Positions 18,103-29,332 of a stretch of DNA of 57,080 nucleotides are shown piece after piece (the stretch's first letter is position 1; each line of letters starts with the position of its first letter). The stretch covers positions 1 through 57,080 of the forward strand of contig NZ_JAFKIC010000124.1 of NCBI RefSeq assembly GCF_017306585.1, given 5' to 3'. Source of the DNA: Mesorhizobium sp. (GTDB lineage Bacteria > Pseudomonadota > Alphaproteobacteria > Rhizobiales > Rhizobiaceae). A program made the position numbers and the translations under genes. The notes under the pieces are model-generated. The model saw only the letters and a program-made list of their open reading frames with translations. It searched no databases and had not been told where the DNA came from.

Positions 18103-19290
18103 ATGTTGACCATCGGCAAGCGCGACGCAAGCGGCACGACCGCCTCGGAGGCTGACCACGACCCGCGTGTGGCCGTCGGCGAGGAGGATGGCGTCCTGGC
18201 CTGCGCTTTCTCCGGAATCTGGACGACCCGCACCGTGGCGCAGATCGACGCTGAGATGCGCAAGATCGAGAAACGCAGCGGCTTCAAGATCTTGGCGCTG
18301 GATCTTTCAGGGATCGAGAAGATCGACACCGCCGGCGCCTGGCTGATCGACCGGCTGGTAAGCGTGTTCGAGAAGAAGAATGTCGAGGTCCGGCTGCAAG
18401 GCCAGAGCGAGATCGCGTCCATCCTGCTCGACGCGGTCGGCGAGGCTGTGCGCCGCGAGCCCGAGTCCGGACCGGCGCAGCCACCCAACATCGTCATTCG
18501 CGCCCTGGAGGCTGTCGGGCGGCGTGTTTACGAGATGAGGGACGATTTCCTGGCCTCCATGAACATATTGGGCGCCACCATCCGCGGCGCGCAGATGAAA
18601 CTCGGCCGTGGCCATGCCGTGAACCCGGCGGCGATCTTCAACCAGATCGATCGCATGGGCGTCGGCGCCATTCCGGTGGTGGTGCTGATGTCGGCGATCG
18701 TCGGCGCCATCGTCGCCCAGCAGGGCGCCTATCAGCTCAGCTATTTCGGCGCCGACATCTTCGTCGTGGACCTCGTCGGCGTGCTGATCCTGCGCGAGCT
18801 CGGCGTGCTGATGACGGCCATCATGATCGCCGGCCGCTCCGGCAGCGCCATCACCGCCGAGATCGGTTCGATGAAGATGCGCGAGGAGGTCGACGCGCTG
18901 AAGGTCATCGGCCTCAACCCGATCGGCGTGCTGGTCTTTCCGCGTCTCGTCGCGCTGGTCATCGCCTTGCCGTGCCTCACCATCATCGCCAATTTCGCCG
19001 CGCTCGGCGGCGGCATCGTCGCGGCCTGGCTCTATTCCGATATCCCGCCGGCAGCCTTCATCGACCGGTTGCGCGTCGCCATCGACCTCAGCACGATTTT
19101 CGCGGGTCTCATCAAGGCGCCGTTCATGGCCATGATCATCGGCACGATCGCCTCCGTAGAAGGAATGAAAGTCGGCGGCAGCGCCGAATCGCTGGGTACG
19201 CACGTCACCGCCTCGGTGGTGAAATCGATCTTCGTGGTCATCATCCTCGATGGGCTTTTTGCGATGTTCTATGCAGCGATCGCGTTCTGA
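18103..19290 (+). CDS. mlaE: Mla-type ABC lipid transporter permease with N-terminal STAS domain
   Basis: A 395-residue inner-membrane permease (MlaE/YrbE family) of an MCE lipid transport system that moves phospholipids between the membranes. Residues ~15-115 form a STAS domain ('ILALDLSGIEKIDTAGAWLI'), fused here instead of being a separate MlaB. The permease domain follows with the signature 'GAIVAQQGAYQLSYFGAD', 'LRELGVLMTAIMIAGRSGSA' and 'EIGSMKMREEVDALKVIGL'. The ATG at 18103 is the first start placing the STAS domain in frame. The open frame upstream (17155-18102) runs antisense to the epimerase gene and is not credible. It is the first gene of a four-gene operon with mlaF, mlaD and an auxiliary lipoprotein. 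Confidence 0.92.
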   Translation: MLTIGKRDASGTTASEADHDPRVAVGEEDGVLACAFSGIWTTRTVAQIDAEMRKIEKRSGFKILALDLSGIEKIDTAGAWLIDRLVSVFEKKNVEVRLQGQSEIASILLDAVGEAVRREPESGPAQPPNIVIRALEAVGRRVYEMRDDFLASMNILGATIRGAQMKLGRGHAVNPAAIFNQIDRMGVGAIPVVVLMSAIVGAIVAQQGAYQLSYFGADIFVVDLVGVLILRELGVLMTAIMIAGRSGSAITAEIGSMKMREEVDALKVIGLNPIGVLVFPRLVALVIALPCLTIIANFAALGGGIVAAWLYSDIPPAAFIDRLRVAIDLSTIFAGLIKAPFMAMIIGTIASVEGMKVGGSAESLGTHVTASVVKSIFVVIILDGLFAMFYAAIAF

Positions 19291-19291
19291 G

Positions 19292-20101
19292 ATGGCACAG
19301 GGCAACGGAGTGACCACTGAAGCGCAGAACGAAAGCGAGTTCGTGCTGTCGGTGACCGACGTTACCGTCGCCATCGAGGACAAGCTGATCCTCGACAAGC
19401 TTTCGCTCGACATAAAGCGCGGCGAAATCCTGGGTTTCGTCGGAGCCTCGGGCGCCGGCAAGTCCGTCCTGTTGCGAACCATTCTCGGGCTGATGCCCAA
19501 GCAGTCAGGAACGATCAAGCTGTTCGGCGTCGATGTCGACAAGGCGAGCGATATCGAGAGGCTGCGCATCGACATGCGGCTTGGCGTGCTGTTTCAGCAT
19601 GGCGCGTTGTTTTCGGCGCTGACCGTGCTGGAAAACGTGCAGGTGCCGATGCGCGAGTATCTCGACCTGCCGAGAAAGCTGATGGACGAGCTCGCGCTGC
19701 TGAAGATCGAGCTCGTCGGGCTGCCGCCGGACGCGGCGCAGAAATTTCCCTCCGAACTCTCCGGCGGCATGATCAAGCGCGCGGCACTTGCGCGCGCCCT
19801 GGCGCTCGATCCGGACATCGTCTTCCTCGACGAGCCGACCTCGGGCCTCGATCCGATCAGCGCGGCCGAGTTCGACGAACTCGTCGTCAAGCTGCGCGAC
19901 ACCATGGATCTGACCGTTTACATGGTCACGCACGATCTCGACACGCTGTTCACCGCCTGCGACCACGTCGCGGTGCTGGGCAAGAAAAAGGTGTTGGTCG
20001 AAGGCACCATAGACGACATGCTGAAGAGCGAAGAACCGTGGGTAAAATCCTATTTCCGCGGAAAACGCGCCCGACAACTTGATCTTGCCGCACGTGCATA
20101 G
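19292..20101 (+). CDS. mlaF: Mla-type ABC transporter ATP-binding protein
   Basis: A 269-residue ATPase that powers the MlaE permease. Walker A is 'GASGAGKSV' near residue 50, the signature 'LSGGMIKRAALARAL' near 156 has the Met-Ile-Lys variant usual in MlaF, and Walker B is 'IVFLDEPTSGLD'. The H-loop is 'YMVTHDLDTLFTACDHVAV'. The ATG at 19292 begins one base after the mlaE stop. An alternative ATG at 19271 would overlap mlaE. Strict gene packing indicates co-transcription. Confidence 0.92.
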   Translation: MAQGNGVTTEAQNESEFVLSVTDVTVAIEDKLILDKLSLDIKRGEILGFVGASGAGKSVLLRTILGLMPKQSGTIKLFGVDVDKASDIERLRIDMRLGVLFQHGALFSALTVLENVQVPMREYLDLPRKLMDELALLKIELVGLPPDAAQKFPSELSGGMIKRAALARALALDPDIVFLDEPTSGLDPISAAEFDELVVKLRDTMDLTVYMVTHDLDTLFTACDHVAVLGKKKVLVEGTIDDMLKSEEPWVKSYFRGKRARQLDLAARA

Positions 20102-20115
20102 CCATAAGTGAAGCA

Positions 20116-21489
20116 ATGGAAACCAGAGCCAACTACGTCATTGTCGGCATTTTTACGCTGGTTGCGATCCTGGCGGCCTTCGCCTTCGTCTACTGGACGG
20201 CGGCGATCGGCGACAAGGGCGAGACCACGCTGCTGCGCGTGCGCATTCCTGGCTCTGCCTCCGGTCTTGGCCGCGGCAGCTTCGTGCTGTTCAACGGCGT
20301 GAAGGTCGGCGACGTCAAGCGCGTCTATATCGACGTCGACAATCCAACCGTCGCCATCGCCGATACCGAAATCGACCGCATGACGCCGATCACCAAGTCG
20401 ACGCAGGCCGATATCGGCCTTGCCGGCCTCACCGGACAGGCCAATATCGAACTCAAGGGGGCTGACCCCAAGGAAGTGAAGCTGCTCGACCAGGCGGAAA
20501 AGGAAGGCAAGGTTGCCGAAATCATCGCCAACCCTTCCGCCGTGACCAACCTTTTGCAGACGGCGCAGACCATTTTTACCCGCGCCGACAAGGTGCTCTC
20601 GGACCTTGAAGGGTTCACCAAGGATGTGCGCGGACCGCTGACGCAGACCGTGCAGAACGTTCAGACCTTCTCGGATGCACTGGCCAAGAATTCGGACGGG
20701 ATCGACAAGTTCCTGTCCAGCGTCAGCGCGCTGTCCGACGAGCTGAAGGGCGTTTCCGGCAAGCTCGACGGCACGCTGAAGGCTGCGGAAGGCCTGCTCA
20801 ACGCGGTCGACAGGGACAAGATCAAGAGCATCGTCGCCAACGTCGATACTGTGACCGCGAACCTCAAGGAAACGTCGCAGCAGCTGGACGGCGTCATCAA
20901 GAACGTCGACACGGCGGTCGGATCCGTCAACGACTTCGCCAAGCAGACGCAGGGCACGCTGGCCAAGGTCGACGGCGTGCTCGACGGCATCGATCCGGCG
21001 CAGGTGCGCACGGCGCTCGCCAACATCCAGAAGGCCAGCGAAAGCGCCGACAAGGCCGCGGCCGACATTGCCGTTGTAACCGACAAGTTCGCCAGCCGCG
21101 CCGATGACATCGACCAGACGATCAAGGACGCCAGGCAGCTTGCACAACGCCTCAACGACGCTTCCGTGCGTGTCGATGGCATTCTGGCCAAGGTCGATAC
21201 GCTGCTTGGTTCGGGGCAGGCGGACGGTGTGATGGCCGACGCCCGGGATACGTTGAAATCGTTCAAGCAGGTCGCCGATACGCTGAATGCGCGGCTCGGC
21301 GTCATCACCGACAATCTGGCCCGTTTCTCCGGCCAGGGGCTGTCGAATGTCGAGGCGCTGGTGCAGGACAGCCGTCGCTCGATCGGGCGCATCGAGGAGG
21401 CGGTGACCGATCTCAGCCGCAATCCGCAGCGCATTCTTTCGGGTGGTGACGGCGAGGTTCGCCAGTTTGATGGCAGGGCGCGACGTTGA
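20116..21489 (+). CDS. mlaD: MCE (MlaD) family lipid-transport substrate-binding protein
   Basis: A 457-residue membrane-anchored MCE protein, the periplasmic part of the Mla-type transporter. The N-terminus 'ANYVIVGIFTLVAILAAFAF' is a signal anchor. The MCE domain follows (~39-115: 'SGLGRGSFVLFNGVKVGDVK', 'ITKSTQADIGLAGLTGQANI'). Residues ~140-440 are a long helical, coiled-coil-like tail with repeated 'VDTVTANLKETSQQLDGV' type segments, as in the single-gene MCE operons of alphaproteobacteria, and much longer than E. coli MlaD (about 180 residues). Such tails can form a tunnel or needle across the periplasm. It starts 14 bases after mlaF. Confidence 0.9.
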   Translation: METRANYVIVGIFTLVAILAAFAFVYWTAAIGDKGETTLLRVRIPGSASGLGRGSFVLFNGVKVGDVKRVYIDVDNPTVAIADTEIDRMTPITKSTQADIGLAGLTGQANIELKGADPKEVKLLDQAEKEGKVAEIIANPSAVTNLLQTAQTIFTRADKVLSDLEGFTKDVRGPLTQTVQNVQTFSDALAKNSDGIDKFLSSVSALSDELKGVSGKLDGTLKAAEGLLNAVDRDKIKSIVANVDTVTANLKETSQQLDGVIKNVDTAVGSVNDFAKQTQGTLAKVDGVLDGIDPAQVRTALANIQKASESADKAAADIAVVTDKFASRADDIDQTIKDARQLAQRLNDASVRVDGILAKVDTLLGSGQADGVMADARDTLKSFKQVADTLNARLGVITDNLARFSGQGLSNVEALVQDSRRSIGRIEEAVTDLSRNPQRILSGGDGEVRQFDGRARR

Positions 21490-21577
21490 CTTCAGTCTCG
21501 GCCAGCCTCAGAAACGTTCATTGCGGATGTGAGCTAATTTCGAGATCGATAGATAACGGGGACAGCAGGGGTCGCGC

Positions 21578-22174
21578 GTGAAGTCTATTGTGTCCAGATC
21601 GGGCCTGGCATTGCTTGCCCTGGCCCTTGCCAGCTGCGCGGCGCTGCCGGGTGGCGGACCCGCACCGCTCGATACGTTCGAACTGTCGGCGCCTTCAGTC
21701 GGTGCGCATGGCCATAGCCGCCGCCAGATTCTGATCGCCCAGCCCTCGGCGCTCAAGGCGCTGGACAGCCAGAACATCGTCATCAAGCCTTCCGCGCGCT
21801 CGATCCAGTATCTGAAGGGCGCCCAATGGGCCGACCGCTTGCCGCTGATCGTGCAGGCGCGGCTGGCCGAGACGTTCCAGCGCTCGGGCAGCTTTGCCGG
21901 CGTCGGCAAGCCGGGCGAGGGCCTGGCGATCGATTATCAGGTGATCGTCGAGATCCGCTCCTTCGAGGTGCGCGTCGACGGCGGCGAGCATGCCGAGGTC
22001 GATCTGTTCGTACGGCTGCTGAACGACCGCAATGGCGAGGTGAAGGCTTCCAAGAGCTTCACGGCGTCCGCGCCAGTTTCGGGCAGCGGCAACGCGGCCT
22101 ATGTCGGCGCGCTGGACAATGCGTTCGGCGATGCCGCGAAACAGATCGTTCGCTGGACCGATTCAGTTATCTGA
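21578..22174 (+). CDS. ABC-type transport auxiliary lipoprotein (PqiC/LptE-like DUF330 family)
   Basis: A 198-residue lipoprotein. The N-terminus 'LALLALALASCAALPGG' holds a lipobox (LASC), so Cys becomes lipidated. The body ('VIKPSARSIQYLKGAQWADR', 'RLAETFQRSG', 'VDYQVIVEIRSFEVRVDGGE' in outline) matches the auxiliary lipoproteins that accompany MCE operons and probably dock the complex to the outer membrane. The GTG at 21578 is preceded by CAGGGG. It lies 88 bases after mlaD on the same strand, as the last gene of the mla-type operon. A palindromic repeat element follows. Confidence 0.88.
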   Translation: MKSIVSRSGLALLALALASCAALPGGGPAPLDTFELSAPSVGAHGHSRRQILIAQPSALKALDSQNIVIKPSARSIQYLKGAQWADRLPLIVQARLAETFQRSGSFAGVGKPGEGLAIDYQVIVEIRSFEVRVDGGEHAEVDLFVRLLNDRNGEVKASKSFTASAPVSGSGNAAYVGALDNAFGDAAKQIVRWTDSVI

Positions 22175-22478: not shown

Positions 22479-25400
22479 TCAGTGCAGGCGGCCGCTGGCA
22501 TGAGCCAGCATGGTGTAGACCTTGCCGGTGTCCGACGTGAGATAGGTCTGCGCCATGATGTTGTCGCGATCGTTGCGCGAGACATCCTTGAGCAGCTTCT
22601 CGAAATCGTCGCAATAACGGTCGACGGCGGCGCGGAATTCGGCCTCGGCCTGATACTTGCGGCGGATCTCGTCGAACGTCTGCTGGCCCTTCAGCGTGTA
22701 AAGCCGGCGCGTGAACACGTCGCGCTCGCCGCGCCGATAGCGGTTCCACAGTTCGATCGACGCATCGTGGTCGATGGCCCGCGCGATGTCGACCGACAGC
22801 GAGTTCAACGATTCCACGACATGCAGCGGCGAACGCTGGGCAGGGGCGGCGCGCGGTGTTTCCGCGGGCGCCTGGGGCGCTGCCGGCCGGAGGTCGGCTT
22901 CGTTCGACGCCGCGCTCAGGAGGTCACGCACCCAGCCGCCCTGCGGCGCACGGGTGTTGGCGTCGGCACGCGGGCGTGATGCCGTTTCGGCCGGACGCTC
23001 GAGGTCGAGCGTGCCGCGCAGCCCGGCGCCGCCCAACGGCGCTTGAGGCGTACGCAGTTCGGGCTGCGGCGCCGGAGCGCGGCGCGGCGGCTCGGCGGGG
23101 CGTGCCGCCGGTGCCTGGGGCGCCGGACGCAGCGGGCGCGGCTCCGAGCCGTCGCCGCCGCCACGGCCTGACTTGGCGACGATGTCCGAGAGCTCCTTCA
23201 GGGCGTTGATCTGCTCGGAGACGGCGCGGCGGATGGCGGATGTCGATTCCTTCGCCTCTTCCGGCATCTCGATGACGCCCTTCTTGAGCTCGGCGCGGGT
23301 GAGGTCGAGCTCGCTCTTGATCGAACCGGCGGTGCGCCGCATCTCCTCGGTCGCGTCGGCGAAGCGCTTGGTTGCCGAATCGACGACATCGGTGATCGCG
23401 TTGCGGATCTTGTCGGCCGATTCCATCGTCTTGCCTTCGGCGTTCTGCAGCGTCTGGCCGACCAGGTTCTCGAACGAGCGCATGACGCGTTCGAGATCTT
23501 CCGACTTCTTGACGAGGCCGACGGCGAGATCCTCGAGCGACGACTGCCTTTCCAGCGTGTGCTCGAGGTTGCTCTGGGCCGAGCTCAAGAGATCCGAAGC
23601 GCTCGCCAGCAGACGGCTGTGCTCGTCGAACTTGGTGGCGATCGAAGCCACTTCGCGCAAGGTCGACGACGACAGTTCCGTCAGCCTCGTGGTGTTCGAA
23701 TCGACCAGACGCGCCGAGCTGGCGAAAGTCTGCGCCGCCTTTTCCGTGGTGGCGGCGAAGCTTTGCGTGCTGCCGGTCAGGCGTTCGTCGACCTGGCCGA
23801 GGTTGACGGCGGCCTGTTCGATCAGCTGACCGAGCTGCGAACTGGACTTGGTCATGCGGCCGATGAGGTCGGCGACGCTGTCGGACAGCGAGGAGCGGGC
23901 GCCTTCGACCGCCGACAAGGTCTCGGCGGTGCGGCTGGCGAGCGCATTGACCAGCGCGGCATTTTCGCTGCGCAGCTTTTCGGTGGCGCGTTCGGTGACC
24001 TCTTCCATGCTCTTTTGCAGTTCCGAGCCGCCCTGGGCAAAACGCTCGACCAGCGGACGGGCGGTTTCGTCGAGGATCTTCGACATCTCGGCCGACCGCG
24101 CCGCGAGCATCGTGTTGAGCTCGCGGGTGTTGGCGCCGATCGTCTTGGCGGCATCGTTGGTGCTCTGGCCGATATGCTGGCCGACCGCGGTGAAGGTCTC
24201 GGCGATCACATTGGCGCGCGAAACCAGTTGCGCCTCGGCGGTCGAAACCTGCTCGTTGAGCCTCTGGCCCATCGTCTCGGTCGTATAGGCGAGGCGGTTC
24301 TCGACGCTGGCGATCTGCTCTTCGACACGGGCGGCCGCGGCCGCCGCGCTCGACGCAAGACGCTCGTCGGCGCCGGCAAGCGCCTGCTCGATTTCGCGGG
24401 CGTGCACGGCCATCTCCTGGCCGGTCTGGCGCGCACGGTCCGCGACCCTCTGCTCGGTGCTGGCAAAGGCTCCGACAATGGTTTCCGCGTGCTCGCCGAT
24501 GGTCGAGGTGCTGTTGGCGATGCGCGAGACGAGGCGCTGATCGGCATCATCAAAGATACGGCCGATTTCGGACGCACGGCTGGACAGTGCGTCGGAACCT
24601 TCGGCGATGCGAGCGACCAGCTGCTGGTCGGCGGCATCGAAGATGCGGCCGAGGTCGGAAGCGCGCGCCGCAAGCGCCTCGGCCGATTCGCCGATGCGCA
24701 TGCCGAGCCGTTGATCAGCACTTTCGAAGTTGCGCAGGATGTCGCCGGCGCGGGCCGCCAGAGACTGCGCCGTCTCGACGGCGCGGGCAACCAGCTTCTG
24801 GTCGGCGGCGTCGAAGGCCCCGGCGATTTCGCTCGCACGGGCGGCAAGCTGATCGGCAGTGTCCTGGGCCCGGGCGGCCAACTGGTCCGTGGTTGCCTGC
24901 GCGCGGGCGGCAAGCTTCTGATCCGCGACATCGAACGTGCCGGCGATCTCGCCGGCGCGGGCAGCCAACTGGTCGGCGGCTTCCTGGGCGCGCGCCATCA
25001 GCGAGCTGGACGTATCGTCGGCGCGAGCGAGAAGCGCGTTCGACGTATCCTCGGCCCGGGCGTGCAGGCGACGATCGGCTTCCTCGAAGGTGCGGGCGAT
25101 GTCCTCGGCGCGCGCCAGAAGCGCGGCGGAGGTCTGTTCGGCGCGCTCGGCGATCTTGCGATCGGCGTCGCTGAACGCCGCGCCAGCCTGCTCATGCAGC
25201 GTGCTGGTGACCTCCAGGACCTTTTCACGCAGGGCGCCGGCAACGAAGACCGCGCTCTTTTCCAGTACGCTGCGGACATTGTCGACGCCGGTGGAGAGCG
25301 CGCGTTCCATCGTCCCCGCGCGTTCCTCGATGATGCCGGTCTGCCGGCTGAAGGCCTGCTCGATCTTCTCGACATCGGCCGCGATGACGGCCGAAATATC

Positions 25401-28400
25401 GGTGCTCCTGGCAGCGATCTGGTCGATATGGCCTGACAGCGAACGGTCGACATCCTTGCGGGCGTCGGCGAGCTTGGCGAGGTCGTCTTCCAGCGCGCGG
25501 CTCAGCATGTTGCGGCCGTCGGCTAGCTTGCCGACATGGCCGGCGATGATGTCGTCCATCTCGCCGCGGCTTTCGGTCAGCCTCTGCAGATCGGCTTCCA
25601 GCGCGCGTTTGAGAATGTCGCGGCCTTCGGACAGCTTCTCGACCTGGCCGGCAACGAGCCCGTCGATGCTGGAGCGGCTTTCGGCGAGCTTGGCCAGGTC
25701 GGCCTCCAGCGCGCGCTTCAGCACATCGCGGCCTTCGGCCAGTTTCTCCACCTGGCCGGCGACGAGCCCGTCGATGCTGGAGCGGCTTTCGGCCAGCTTG
25801 GCAAGATCGGCTTCCAGCGCGCGCTTCAAGACATCGCGGCCCTCGGCAAGTTTCTCGACCTGGCCTGCGACGAGCCCGTCGATGCTGGAGCGGCTCTCGG
25901 CCAGCTTGGCGAGATCGTCCTCCAGCGCCCTGGAGAGGTTCGAACGCTCCTGGACAAGCCGTTCGGCGTGGTTGTTGGCATGACCACTTACAGTCAGCAG
26001 GTCAGCCTCCAGGGCCCTCGACAGAGTCGAACGATCCTGGGCAAGCCGATCCGTGTGGCTGTTGACGTGGGTGGCGACAGCCTCAAGATCGGTATCGAGC
26101 GCTTTCGACAGTGCGGTGCGCTCCTGGACCAGGCGGTCGGAGTGGTCGTTGACGTGCTTAGCGACCGTCTCCAGGTCGGTTTCAAGCGCCTTCGACAGCG
26201 CGGAGCGCTCCAGGGCGAGTCGGTCGGAATGGCTGTTGACGAGACCGTTGACGCTTTCGAGATCGGCTTCGAGGGCTCGGGTGAACTGGGCGCGGTCATC
26301 GACCAGTTTCTGCGACTGGTCGGCTACGGTGTTCCGGACCGCATTGAGGTCGGCTTCCAATGCACGCCGCAGGATGTCGCGGCCTTCCGCCAGCTTTTCG
26401 ACCTGGCCCGTCACCAGACCATCGATGCTGGAGCGGCTTTCGGCGAGCTTGGCGAGGTCGTCCTCAAGCGCCTTGGACAGGGTGGAGCGATCCTGGACGA
26501 GCTTGTTCATGTGATCGGCGATGACGCTGTTCACATTCTGCAGGTCGGCTTCCAGAACACGCGAAAGCTGCCCGCGGTCCTCCGCCAGCTTTTCCGACTG
26601 GCTCGATATGACACCCTTGATGGTGTTGAGGTCCGATTCCAGCGCGCGCTTGAGAATATCGCGGCCCTCGGCCAGCTTCTCGACCTGGCCGGCGACCAGC
26701 CCGTCGATGCTCGACCGGCTTTCCGCCAGCTTGGCAAGGTCGGCTTCGAGCATCTGCGACAACAGGCTGCGGTCGTTGGCGAGCCGCCCGGAATGGTCGT
26801 CGAGCAGGCCCCTTATGCCCGAAAGGTCGCTCTCAAGCGAACGGCCAAGCTGGCTGCGGTCCTCGGCTATTTTCGCCGAATGCGCCTCGATCAGGCTCTT
26901 GATGCCGGCGATGTCGTTCTCCAGGGCCTTGGCGAGCACCGCGCGGCCCTCGGCGATCTTTTCGACCTGACCCGCGACAAGTCCGTCGATGCCGGCGCGG
27001 CTGTCGGACAGTTTGCCGAGATCGGCCTCCAGGGCACGCGACAGGATGTTGCGGCCTTCGGCGAGCTTTCCGACATGTCCGGCGACCATTTCATCAATGA
27101 TCGTACGGGCTTGGACGAGCTTTCCGGAGTCTTCGTTGAGAGCCAGGGAGAGCCGGTTGCGGCCTTCTTCCAGCCTTTCGAGGTGGCTGCCGAGCGAAGC
27201 ATCGATGGCAGCGCGCGATTCGTTGACCTTGCGCAAATCCTCTTCGAGCGCGCGCGCGATCAGATTGCGGCCCTCGGCCAGCTTCTGCACCTGATTGGTC
27301 ACTGCGGCATCGATGCCGGCGCGGCCTTCGGCGAATTTCGCCAGATCCGCCTGCATGGCCGCTGCCATGCGCTCGCGGCTCTCGGACAGTTTGCGGCTGT
27401 GGTTCTCGACGGCTTCCTCTATGCCCACGCGTGCGTCGGCCAGGCGCTGTATGTCGCTGTCGAAGGAACGCGAGACGACATGACGCGCCGCCTCCATGCG
27501 CCCGGCGAAGTCGCTGGCGCGAGCCTCCAGCATGGAGGAGGTGGAGGTGACGATGTCGGCCATGTCGGCGCCGATCTGGGTCTTGCCCTGATCGATCATC
27601 GCAGCCAGCGTATCCTTGCTCTCGGCGAAGGTGTGGGCGATTTCACGGGCGCGTTCGACCAGCGTCTCGTTGATCTGGCGGGCGCGCGCCTCTAGCGCTG
27701 CGTTGAGCTTCTGCGTGCCGGTGTCCAGCGCTTCTGCGCGGGTCTGGAACTCGCTGATCAGCGCCTGGCCGCGTTCGGCCAGAGTGCGCTCGATGCCGTT
27801 GAGGCTGGCCTCGAATTCCGAGCTCAGCGTACGCGCGGCGCCGCCAAGCAGCGACACCATGCCGGTGGTGCGGTCGTCGAGCAGGTCGGTCAGCGACCGG
27901 GTCAGGCCGTCTGTCGTGTCCGTCAGCTTGGCGATGCGCGTATCGAGCAGGCTGGCGAAGGCCTCGCCCGAGGTCGACAGGCGGTCGGTGATGTTGTCGA
28001 GCCGGCCTTCCACCGAATCGAAGATCGACATTGAGCTTTCGTTGATGCGGTCGATCAGCGTGTCGCCGGAATTGGTGATCGTCATCGACAGCTTGGTCGA
28101 GGCGTTGAGGATCGAGTCGCGGATGATGTCGCTGGCGGCGCCGATCTCGTCCCTGAGCGTCTCATGCGCGCCGGCGATCGAGGCGCGGACGCGTTCGGCA
28201 TGGGTGACGACCGCCTCGCGCTCGCTGCCGAGGCCATCGACGAGCGAACGGATGCGGTTCTCGTTTTCAGAATAGGAGCGCTCGATCTGGTTGACTTCGC
28301 TGTGCACCAGCGTTTCCAGTTCCACGGCGCGGGCGAGCGTGCGCTCGATGCCTTCGCCCATCGCCGCCACCTCGCGGCGAACGGCCTGGCCGATCATCAT

Positions 28401-29060
28401 GACGCGATCCTGCGCCATGTTTTCCGGCTCGGTCAGGCGGAAGGCCACTTCCGTCATCGATTGCGCGGCGATGCGCATGTCCTGGGCGCGGCGAATCATT
28501 GCCGCGAAGGCCCAGAACAGGATCACCGGCACGATTGCCGCGACCGCCAGGCCGATCAGCTCGGGGCGGGCAAAGAACTGGTCGAGCGTGCGGATCTGCC
28601 AGATGCTCGGTCCGAAAAGCAGGTTCGCCAGGCCGCCCGCACCCGCGATCCAGGCGAGCGAGACGAAGGCGATGACCCAGTAGATGGTGTTGGAGGCGCG
28701 CCGGTTGAGGCTGTGAAGAAGCGTCTTGTAATCCTTCTGGCGGTCGTCGTTGGCTGGCGCGAAACCGGCTGGCTGGGCGCTGGCGCGCGTCTCGACCGGG
28801 CGCAGTTCTGCCGGTTTGGCTTTGGGCGCGGGCTTTGCCGGTTGGGCCTGGCTGACGACGGGTGCGGGCTGCTGGTTGCGTCCCTCGCGGGCCAGTTCGT
28901 CGGCCGCCTGGGATATCTGCGCTTCCAGATCTTCCATCGAAGCGGCGATGTCGAGGTCGCCGCTGCCGGCGTCGCTGCCGAGGTCTATGTCGAGCGCTTT
29001 TTCCAGTTCCCTGGCCACGTCGCTGTCGAGATTTCTTGTCGTCGTTGGTTTCTTCGCCAT
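22479..29060 (-). CDS. rgsE: Giant polar-growth coiled-coil protein, GPR/RgsE family
   Basis: A 2193-residue protein resembling the Growth Pole Ring protein of Agrobacterium and RgsE of Sinorhizobium, which organise unipolar growth in Hyphomicrobiales. Order: a cytoplasmic acidic N-terminus; a Pro/Ala linker (~64-105); two transmembrane helices (~126-149 'YWVIAFVSLAWIAGAGGLAN', ~167-189 'ELIGLAVAAIVPVILFWAFA'); a rod of some 1600 residues; a Pro/Arg-rich linker; and a conserved C-terminal ~115-residue domain ('LSVDIARAIDHDASIELWNR'). The rod contains two repeat zones, listed separately. The ATG at 29060 ('MAKKPTTTRN') is preferred over the longer frame to 29252, since the extra residues look untranslated and GAAGG lies just upstream. 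It is divergent from the Hpt gene. The family assignment rests on size, topology and apolipoprotein-like repeats. Confidence 0.82.
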   Translation of the reverse strand: MAKKPTTTRNLDSDVARELEKALDIDLGSDAGSGDLDIAASMEDLEAQISQAADELAREGRNQQPAPVVSQAQPAKPAPKAKPAELRPVETRASAQPAGFAPANDDRQKDYKTLLHSLNRRASNTIYWVIAFVSLAWIAGAGGLANLLFGPSIWQIRTLDQFFARPELIGLAVAAIVPVILFWAFAAMIRRAQDMRIAAQSMTEVAFRLTEPENMAQDRVMMIGQAVRREVAAMGEGIERTLARAVELETLVHSEVNQIERSYSENENRIRSLVDGLGSEREAVVTHAERVRASIAGAHETLRDEIGAASDIIRDSILNASTKLSMTITNSGDTLIDRINESSMSIFDSVEGRLDNITDRLSTSGEAFASLLDTRIAKLTDTTDGLTRSLTDLLDDRTTGMVSLLGGAARTLSSEFEASLNGIERTLAERGQALISEFQTRAEALDTGTQKLNAALEARARQINETLVERAREIAHTFAESKDTLAAMIDQGKTQIGADMADIVTSTSSMLEARASDFAGRMEAARHVVSRSFDSDIQRLADARVGIEEAVENHSRKLSESRERMAAAMQADLAKFAEGRAGIDAAVTNQVQKLAEGRNLIARALEEDLRKVNESRAAIDASLGSHLERLEEGRNRLSLALNEDSGKLVQARTIIDEMVAGHVGKLAEGRNILSRALEADLGKLSDSRAGIDGLVAGQVEKIAEGRAVLAKALENDIAGIKSLIEAHSAKIAEDRSQLGRSLESDLSGIRGLLDDHSGRLANDRSLLSQMLEADLAKLAESRSSIDGLVAGQVEKLAEGRDILKRALESDLNTIKGVISSQSEKLAEDRGQLSRVLEADLQNVNSVIADHMNKLVQDRSTLSKALEDDLAKLAESRSSIDGLVTGQVEKLAEGRDILRRALEADLNAVRNTVADQSQKLVDDRAQFTRALEADLESVNGLVNSHSDRLALERSALSKALETDLETVAKHVNDHSDRLVQERTALSKALDTDLEAVATHVNSHTDRLAQDRSTLSRALEADLLTVSGHANNHAERLVQERSNLSRALEDDLAKLAESRSSIDGLVAGQVEKLAEGRDVLKRALEADLAKLAESRSSIDGLVAGQVEKLAEGRDVLKRALEADLAKLAESRSSIDGLVAGQVEKLSEGRDILKRALEADLQRLTESRGEMDDIIAGHVGKLADGRNMLSRALEDDLAKLADARKDVDRSLSGHIDQIAARSTDISAVIAADVEKIEQAFSRQTGIIEERAGTMERALSTGVDNVRSVLEKSAVFVAGALREKVLEVTSTLHEQAGAAFSDADRKIAERAEQTSAALLARAEDIARTFEEADRRLHARAEDTSNALLARADDTSSSLMARAQEAADQLAARAGEIAGTFDVADQKLAARAQATTDQLAARAQDTADQLAARASEIAGAFDAADQKLVARAVETAQSLAARAGDILRNFESADQRLGMRIGESAEALAARASDLGRIFDAADQQLVARIAEGSDALSSRASEIGRIFDDADQRLVSRIANSTSTIGEHAETIVGAFASTEQRVADRARQTGQEMAVHAREIEQALAGADERLASSAAAAAARVEEQIASVENRLAYTTETMGQRLNEQVSTAEAQLVSRANVIAETFTAVGQHIGQSTNDAAKTIGANTRELNTMLAARSAEMSKILDETARPLVERFAQGGSELQKSMEEVTERATEKLRSENAALVNALASRTAETLSAVEGARSSLSDSVADLIGRMTKSSSQLGQLIEQAAVNLGQVDERLTGSTQSFAATTEKAAQTFASSARLVDSNTTRLTELSSSTLREVASIATKFDEHSRLLASASDLLSSAQSNLEHTLERQSSLEDLAVGLVKKSEDLERVMRSFENLVGQTLQNAEGKTMESADKIRNAITDVVDSATKRFADATEEMRRTAGSIKSELDLTRAELKKGVIEMPEEAKESTSAIRRAVSEQINALKELSDIVAKSGRGGGDGSEPRPLRPAPQAPAARPAEPPRRAPAPQPELRTPQAPLGGAGLRGTLDLERPAETASRPRADANTRAPQGGWVRDLLSAASNEADLRPAAPQAPAETPRAAPAQRSPLHVVESLNSLSVDIARAIDHDASIELWNRYRRGERDVFTRRLYTLKGQQTFDEIRRKYQAEAEFRAAVDRYCDDFEKLLKDVSRNDRDNIMAQTYLTSDTGKVYTMLAHASGRLH
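24372..25166 (-). repeat. rgsE repeat zone B: eight modules on a 29-residue base
   Basis: Second in-frame repeat zone, separated from zone A by 70 residues. Modules usually start 'ADQ(K/R)L' and contain 'LAARA'. Their lengths in order are 29, 51, 40, 29, 29, 29, 29 and 29 residues, which exactly fill 795 bases. The longer ones equal 29 plus one or two 11-residue hendecads. Beyond 24372 the pattern decays. Confidence 0.85.
25377..27455 (-). repeat. rgsE repeat zone A: 21 modules of 36 or 29 residues
   Basis: In-frame protein repeats. Counting every module from 'DIQRLADARVGI' to 'DISAVIAA' gives twelve modules of 36 residues and nine of 29 (total 693 residues), which exactly fills 25377-27455. 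Most modules begin with Asp-Leu and end with a segment like 'RALEA'. The 36-mers differ from the 29-mers by one extra heptad. Three consecutive 36-mers (25593-25916) are nearly identical at protein level ('LAESRSSIDGLVAGQVEKL'), and isolated copies recur at 26352-26459 and 26634-26741. Confidence 0.9.
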
Positions 29061-29202
29061 GCCTTCGCTACCCTGTACTAGCTGCCGCGGGCTTATAATT
29101 CTGGTTGTCGTACCCCCGCACAGGAGGCTGAAAAATGGACCTTCGTATCGTAATGACACAGGGGGGTAAAGAAAACATGCATTCCGCGGGATACGTAAAA
29201 CT

Positions 29203-29219
29203 TTAAATATAAGGTTAAC
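29203..29219. promoter_or_regulatory. CtrA-like half-site pair TTAA-N8-TTAAC in the rgsE/Hpt divergent region
   Basis: The AT-rich centre of the 29061-29332 gap has TTAA at 29203-29206 and TTAAC at 29215-29219. The Caulobacter CtrA consensus is TTAA-N7-TTAAC, so the spacing is one base too long. Read with N7, the left half is TAAA. A GANTC (CcrM) site is at 29287-29291. It is plausible for a cell-cycle-timed polar-growth gene but weak on its own. Confidence 0.3.
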
Positions 29220-29332
29220 GGAAGCGTGATTTGGGCGCCGCTTTCGCAACATTTTTCCGCGCCATTCATTAACCCGTTGTCCACTGGATTCGCCTAATTT
29301 TCCGGGCGGCCAAAGTAACGGAGTTCGAGTTC

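Follow-up and report, generated by a model that had tools for sequence, protein, structure and literature searches.

Near-whole-turn repeat units of 11 and 18 residues in the rod of the polar-growth protein GPR/RgsE

Gene identification and features

The stretch of DNA analysed here (the window) comprises 57,080 nucleotides of a Mesorhizobium sp. contig (NZ_JAFKIC010000124.1, assembly GCF_017306585.1) and carries a long gene that was assigned to GPR/RgsE (Table 1), a protein for which growth-pole localisation and a role in polar growth have been reported in Agrobacterium tumefaciens (GPR) and Sinorhizobium meliloti (RgsE) (PMC8262873, PMC7327166). The assignment was made because the coding sequence (CDS) of the S. 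meliloti orthologue is 2,089 amino acids (aa) long, equal to the published length of RgsE (PMC7327166), and because identity between it and the window protein is 57% in the N-terminal part (180 residues compared) and 82% in the C-terminal part (115 residues). The identity proposed in a preliminary description of the sequence was thus borne out, and the protein is taken, on sequence grounds, to be GPR/RgsE of Mesorhizobium. On length and homology, the S. meliloti CDS would correspond to SMc00190. Loss of rgsE is tolerated in S. meliloti (PMC7327166). The layout is likewise that of GPR/RgsE, with two hydrophobic N-terminal segments, read by eye from the sequence rather than with a transmembrane predictor, followed by a long helical rod; GPR was reported to have two N-terminal transmembrane domains (PMC8262873). 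The start codon was placed from the N termini of relatives, the open reading frame (ORF) itself opening at 29252. The best named relative found with the N-terminal query was Mesorhizobium sp. M8A.F.Ca.ET.218 (96%). Of the 297 genomes sampled within the order (Rhizobiales), 296 matched the same query, and its profile matched 26 of 289 genomes from the class, 22 of those 26 lying outside the order.

Table 1. Features of the gpr locus; nucleotide positions refer to the window and residues to the ORF.
Feature	Position	Strand	Residues	Remarks
ORF	22479-29252	minus		2,257 codons
GPR/RgsE gene	22479..29060	minus	from 65	putative start ATG at 29060 (MAKKPTTT); 2,193 aa from there
Two hydrophobic N-terminal segments	28494..28685	minus	190-214 and 231-253	likely transmembrane; by eye
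N-rod	27468..28391	minus	288-595	amphipathic; period ~3.645 (computed on segment 290-600)
Zone A	25389..27467	minus	596-1288	twelve 36- and nine 29-residue modules; mean 3.609 residues/turn; hydrophobic period 3.615
Undivided 71-residue stretch between zones A and B	25176..25388	minus		fast phase change at about residues 1340-1364
Zone B	24381..25175	minus	1360-1624	29, 51, 40, five 29s; units are 11s plus one 18
C-rod	23208..24380	minus	1625-2015	holds best PF01442 stretch (1643-1835)
Linker and C-terminal domain	22482..23207	minus		indel-rich; served as control
Mla/Pqi-like operon (ABC ATPase, MlaD, auxiliary lipoprotein)	19250-22174			convergent, faces gpr 3' end

Repeat units of the rod

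Module heads were located with a pattern and an iterated scoring matrix, after which their spacings were tabulated. In zone A, heads were found at residues 596, 632, 668, 704, 740, 776, 805, 834, 870, 899, 928, 964, 993, 1022, 1051, 1080, 1109, 1145, 1181, 1217, 1253 and 1289, giving spacings of twelve 36s and nine 29s with a total of 693 residues. Zone B was anchored at residues 1360, 1389, 1440, 1480, 1509, 1538, 1567 and 1596 (spacings of 29, 51, 40, 29, 29, 29 and 29); its last joint, at residue 1625, was missed by the scan and read by eye, and with this joint included the zone amounts to 265 residues (29, 51, 40 and five 29s). Both compositions had been given in the preliminary description and were confirmed, the last joint by eye only. 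The head-based zone limits differ from the outer limits given there by three to four residues.

A simpler notation for the modules uses 11- and 18-residue units: 29 = 11+18, 36 = 18+18, 40 = 11+11+18 and 51 = 11+11+11+18. In the matrix scan, an 18+18 split appeared in ten of the twelve 36s of zone A and an 11+18 split in six of its nine 29s. In zone B, the 51 was divided into 11+11+11+18 and the 40 into 11+11+18, and two of the six 29s showed the 11+18 split. Self-identity was maximal at lags of 36, 94 and 29 in zone A, and at lags of 29, 40, 58 and 11 in zone B.

The earlier proposal of a 29-residue base module was not supported. On a quick tree of 138 rods, the dominant lag was a multiple of 11 in 65, mixed (29, 36, 40 and others) in 53 and neither in 20; as repeats at multiples of 11 were so common among the rods, 29 was rejected as a universal base module. 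Mixed dominant lags lay mainly on the Mesorhizobium side of the tree, and the mixed state required 17 changes, at least 13 of which were forced by starred branches. The ancestral unit was likely 11.

Permitted repeat distances across the order

Of the 180 loci fetched, 179 yielded a rod (L205 did not), and together with the window rod these gave 175 distinct sequences. Rod ends were placed by proline density or, where that failed, by trimming 150 residues. For each lag from 1 to 66, we counted the 18-residue segments with at least ten identities to their own rod. Two rods, L169 (a real exception) and L176 (a scaffold gap), were set aside, leaving 173. Nearly all self-similar segments (38,554 of 38,562) fell at lags of the form 11n+7m with m≤n, which make up 16 of the 66 lags. 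Such on-lattice segments were present in 145 of the 173 rods, and any off-lattice segment in only four. Retaining L169 and L176 gave 39,310 on-lattice and 1,174 off-lattice segments, the latter in six of 175 rods; 28 of the 175 had no on-lattice segment at this threshold and are uninformative for the rule. In the linkers of the same proteins, which served as a control, 149 of 892 segments fell at these lags. The self-similarity was not due to chance, since shuffling (once per rod, 175 rods) left four qualifying segments vs. 40,484 in the real rods.

The rule is equivalent to a module length that lies close to a whole number of helical turns at 3.60–3.67 residues per turn. It is narrower than the preliminary description, in which module lengths differed by steps of 7 or 11. 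That formulation proved too loose: of the 20 lags up to 66 that are permitted by 7a+11b and forbidden by m≤n, 19 were without any segment. The 36- and 40-residue modules of the window themselves differ by 4. Two rods were viewed after the rule had been fixed; RgsE of S. meliloti repeats at lags of 22, 29, 58 and 62, unlike the window protein with its repeats of mostly 29 and 36 (this comparison covers the S. meliloti orthologue only), and the rod of a Shinella protein repeats at 11, 22, 36, 44, 62 and 66, all of which conform.

Helical period, phase and hydrophobic stripe

The window rod as a whole had a hydrophobic period of 3.625; the value was 3.615 for zone A, 3.630 for zone B and about 3.645 for either end, and the peak lay at 3.615–3.65 in every part. 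Power at these peaks was 20–91 across the rod. At a period of 3.5, it was 0.1–0.6 in zones A and B (vs. peaks of 27–91) and 1.1–4.7 elsewhere in the rod; in two other rods, of S. meliloti and Shinella, it was 0.7 and 0.5 vs. peaks of 73 and 91. Among 175 rods, the median period was 3.635 and the peak rounded to 3.60–3.66 in 164. A heptad coiled coil, the register of which had entered the preliminary description, was therefore rejected. Hendecad coiled coils have an 11-residue period and 3.667 residues per turn. An 11-residue period was found in many GPR rods, and these may pack as hendecad coiled coils; their mean period is usually lower than that of hendecads, owing to the 18-residue units.

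The phase of the hydrophobic face was mostly continuous. Over 159 rods, the median phase step per 44 residues was 22 degrees, vs. 59 degrees in a scripted control that removed 0–3 residues at every 44-residue joint and 75 degrees after shuffling; steps larger than 90 degrees made up 7% of the real, 32% of the trimmed and 42% of the shuffled cases. In the window rod, the local phase drifted smoothly across most module joints. It drifted along runs of 36s and was nearly flat along runs of 29s, matching their pitches. In six plotted parts of the rod, the hydrophobic stripe was narrow (60–90 degrees at half hydrophobic), and lysine and arginine lay mainly on one of its flanks in four of the six, the exceptions being zone A and the C-rod. 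Zone A is rich in leucine (14%) and zone B in alanine (25%). Two rod fragments modelled with AlphaFold2 from single sequences were helical apart from one low-confidence break each (pTM 0.24 and 0.29).

A straight stripe could also be a lipid-facing surface. GPR would then bind membrane or lipid as apolipoproteins and perilipin 4 do, with whole turns aligning the lipid face, a reading that has been proposed for GPR in print (PMC8262873) and that we regard as possible without favouring it. The rod resembles the apolipoprotein A1/A4/E family (PF01442) in its profile matches and amphipathic helical repeats, and all three relatives scanned scored far above the curated cut-off of 90 bits (268, 287 and 232 bits). 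The window protein, however, remained below it at 83.3 bits and differs from the family in its membrane anchor and size. Weak PF01442 matches were also obtained in seven of 14 control genomes, and in the PDB the best stretch matched nothing but apolipoprotein A-IV, with an E value of 0.054. The convergence of gpr with the Mla/Pqi-like operon would suit a lipid-related role; of the 155 loci that extend 900 nt or more past the stop of gpr, a set in which some genomes occur twice, 102 show this arrangement. The narrowness of the stripe argues against a lipid face, as it is more like that of a packing seam.

The 11-residue units are also found in perilipins, and the giant amphipathic helix of perilipin 4 is likewise a very long helix of 11-mers (PMC5889406). 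It consists of 29 tandem 33-mers, with no indels from one to the next, and carries lysines on one flank (PMC5889406), as lysine and arginine lie in four of the six GPR segments plotted. Perilipin 4 differs in being weakly hydrophobic and coating lipid droplets (PMC5889406), whereas the GPR units include steps of +7; the likeness is one of description only.

Insertions and deletions in the rod

Length changes were scored in a close-relative set of 51 of 82 distinct sequences (pairs with at least 80% identity), joined by a minimum spanning tree of 46 comparisons. Of these, 45 were scored; the end motif was lacking in the remaining one (L042–L043). ORFs without an intact C terminus had been excluded from the 82, save six with variant ends. 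Under the same gap penalties, the rods contained 68 indels, all of 11–180 residues, and the C-terminal part contained 111, all of 1–12 residues. The rod indels measured 11 (five), 18, 22, 29 (24), 36 (13), 40, 58 (three) and 65 (eight), and 12 were longer. All 56 indels of 11–65 residues fitted the 7/11 lattice, a test for which the other 12 were too long, and no single 7-residue rod indel occurred among the 45 scored comparisons. Wider comparisons covered the first 320 rod residues, where 27 of 30 flanked gaps equalled 7, 11 or sums of these; 23 of the 30 fitted m≤n, and the remaining seven measured 7 (three), 14 (one), 4 (two) and 10 (one). The earlier claim that length changes keep the register was supported by the rod indels of close relatives (68 of 68 of at least 11 residues, fitting the lattice up to 65); the gaps of 4, 4 and 10 were exceptions.

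Five inserted copies were compared at the DNA level with the copies on either side; similarity to the closer neighbour was 94, 94, 85, 80 and 68%, the two at 94% measuring 108 and 282 nt. Unequal recombination is a likely source of the module copies, as judged from these similarities. The rods of two M. ciceri genomes are a single 29-residue module apart in length. Repeats may be collapsed in short-read assemblies; three rods from a one-contig genome or complete records still differed, measuring 1,751 (L034), 1,657 (L058) and 1,588 residues (L070) from anchor to end motif.

These copies raise the alternative that the mechanics of duplication suffice, with an 11-mer array copied by recombination and lattice lengths arising as copies of copies, without selection on phase. 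Two of the five inserted copies are 94% like their neighbour, and 29, 36 or their sums make up most of the close-relative indels, as would be expected from copying. Nevertheless, mixed lengths arose in separate parts of the quick tree (the 17 changes given above), offsets off the lattice were almost absent, and rod indels below 11 residues were lacking in every scorable close comparison. The case for selection was made because of lengths that do not copy a local unit and because of the missing small indels. We consider duplication on its own an unlikely explanation.

Rod length

For a rod to enter the length survey, more than 150 residues had to follow it. Rod length varied from 369 to 2,474 residues among 138 rods from the order and from 1,551 to 2,014 (mean 1,670) in a chosen set of 41 rods from the Mesorhizobium side. 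Because of this spread, the length ruler suggested in the preliminary description was unsupported, and a ruler of fixed length was not retained. A straight alpha-helix rises 0.15 nm per residue, and the Mesorhizobium-side rods, differing by up to 463 residues, would differ by about 70 nm. Under a ruler, rod length would determine a dimension of the growing pole, for example how far apart GPR foci lie or how large the ring is; six GPR foci were described as forming a 200-nm ring (PMC8262873). Rod length did correlate with genome size (Spearman 0.60 for 77 rods of the order and 0.58 for 71 rods), but the link was weak once phylogenetic contrasts were used (r 0.23, p 0.06, 40 of 68 signs). Taken with the length differences, this makes a ruler very improbable.

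Proposed organisation of the rod

The rod is probably one very long amphipathic helix built of 11- and 18-residue units, in which the phase is kept by a filter and the length is free. As 18 equals 11+7, the two units would mix to about 3.60–3.67 residues per turn and hold a narrow hydrophobic stripe nearly straight along some 1,600 residues. Tandem copies would be gained and lost through unequal recombination between similar DNA repeats, and survivors would be filtered by helical phase, selection on the stripe admitting only length changes that approximate whole turns. The azimuth of the rod would thereby be constrained and its length unconstrained. The stripe may act as a packing seam in the polar ring scaffold, joining GPR helices to one another or to a partner; a lipid-facing surface is a less probable function. 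More tentatively, GPR may be a polar-growth scaffold that is length-free and phase-locked, in which lineages retune the twist between 3.60 and 3.67 through the mix of 11s and 18s, and a straight seam lets rods of any length attach zipper-like, to one another or to a surface, at the pole where growth occurs. What emerges cleanly is an order-wide regularity in a known protein, with the base unit and the ruler of the preliminary description replaced by a whole-turn phase rule in units of 11 and 18.

Several observations weigh against this organisation of the rod. The m≤n form was picked after the lags had been seen and is thus fitted post hoc; moreover, the rods are related and the segments overlap, so that their counts are not independent. 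L169 is a clear exception, with a four-residue AAxx tandem giving 110 segments at lag 4; the tandem sits near the rod end, at rod residues ~806–940. At a threshold of nine in 18, 61 of 55,891 segments were off the lattice, in 18 of 173 rods, and beyond lag 66 there were 22 segments at 81 (L179), five at 115 (L149) and one at 103 (L173). The hydrophobic peak lay at 3.57–3.59 in 11 of the 175 rods. Fast phase shifts occurred in the window rod near residues 380–404, 1340–1364 and 1880–1916, and the AlphaFold2 breaks fell at ~1092–1098, inside a module, and at 1440–1445, at a zone B module head. Among the flanked gaps, the 4, 4 and 10 (pairs at 46–55% identity) depart from the lattice, and the three 7s and the 14 also break m≤n. 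Three of the five inserted copies were only 68–85% like their neighbour, copying of existing repeats alone yields whole-module indels, and the C-terminal control for indels is of low complexity and prone to slippage.

No modular, hendecad or phase rule for GPR/RgsE was stated in titles or abstracts among the matches listed. The excerpts of the GPR and RgsE papers describe apolipoprotein-like domains and coiled coils rather than modules (PMC8262873, PMC7327166). The main text of PMC8262873 contained no word starting with repeat, heptad or hendecad, its reference 13, an earlier GPR paper, lying outside this check, and its conclusions state that the mode of action of GPR is unknown. The rule names a property that the rod keeps (a continuous phase with a period of about 3.63) and one that it does not (length). 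On this rule, the rod should accept insertions of 11 or 18 residues but not those of 2 or 5. A further point touched by the rule is the length of the extended 1,700-residue helical domain of GPR, which was given as 600 nm (PMC8262873, Conclusions). A straight alpha-helix of 1,700 residues would measure ~255 nm, vs. the 600 nm of PMC8262873, which fits an unfolded chain.

Surroundings of gpr

As at the S. meliloti RgsE locus, folP lies nearby in the window. In S. meliloti Ak57, the RgsE orthologue (L214, 3462–9731) is annotated as 'kinesin' and is found on a record titled pSymB. Among the loci scored for the arrangement of gpr and the Mla/Pqi-like operon, 13 came from other orders of the class, and in nine of these 13 the two were likewise convergent.

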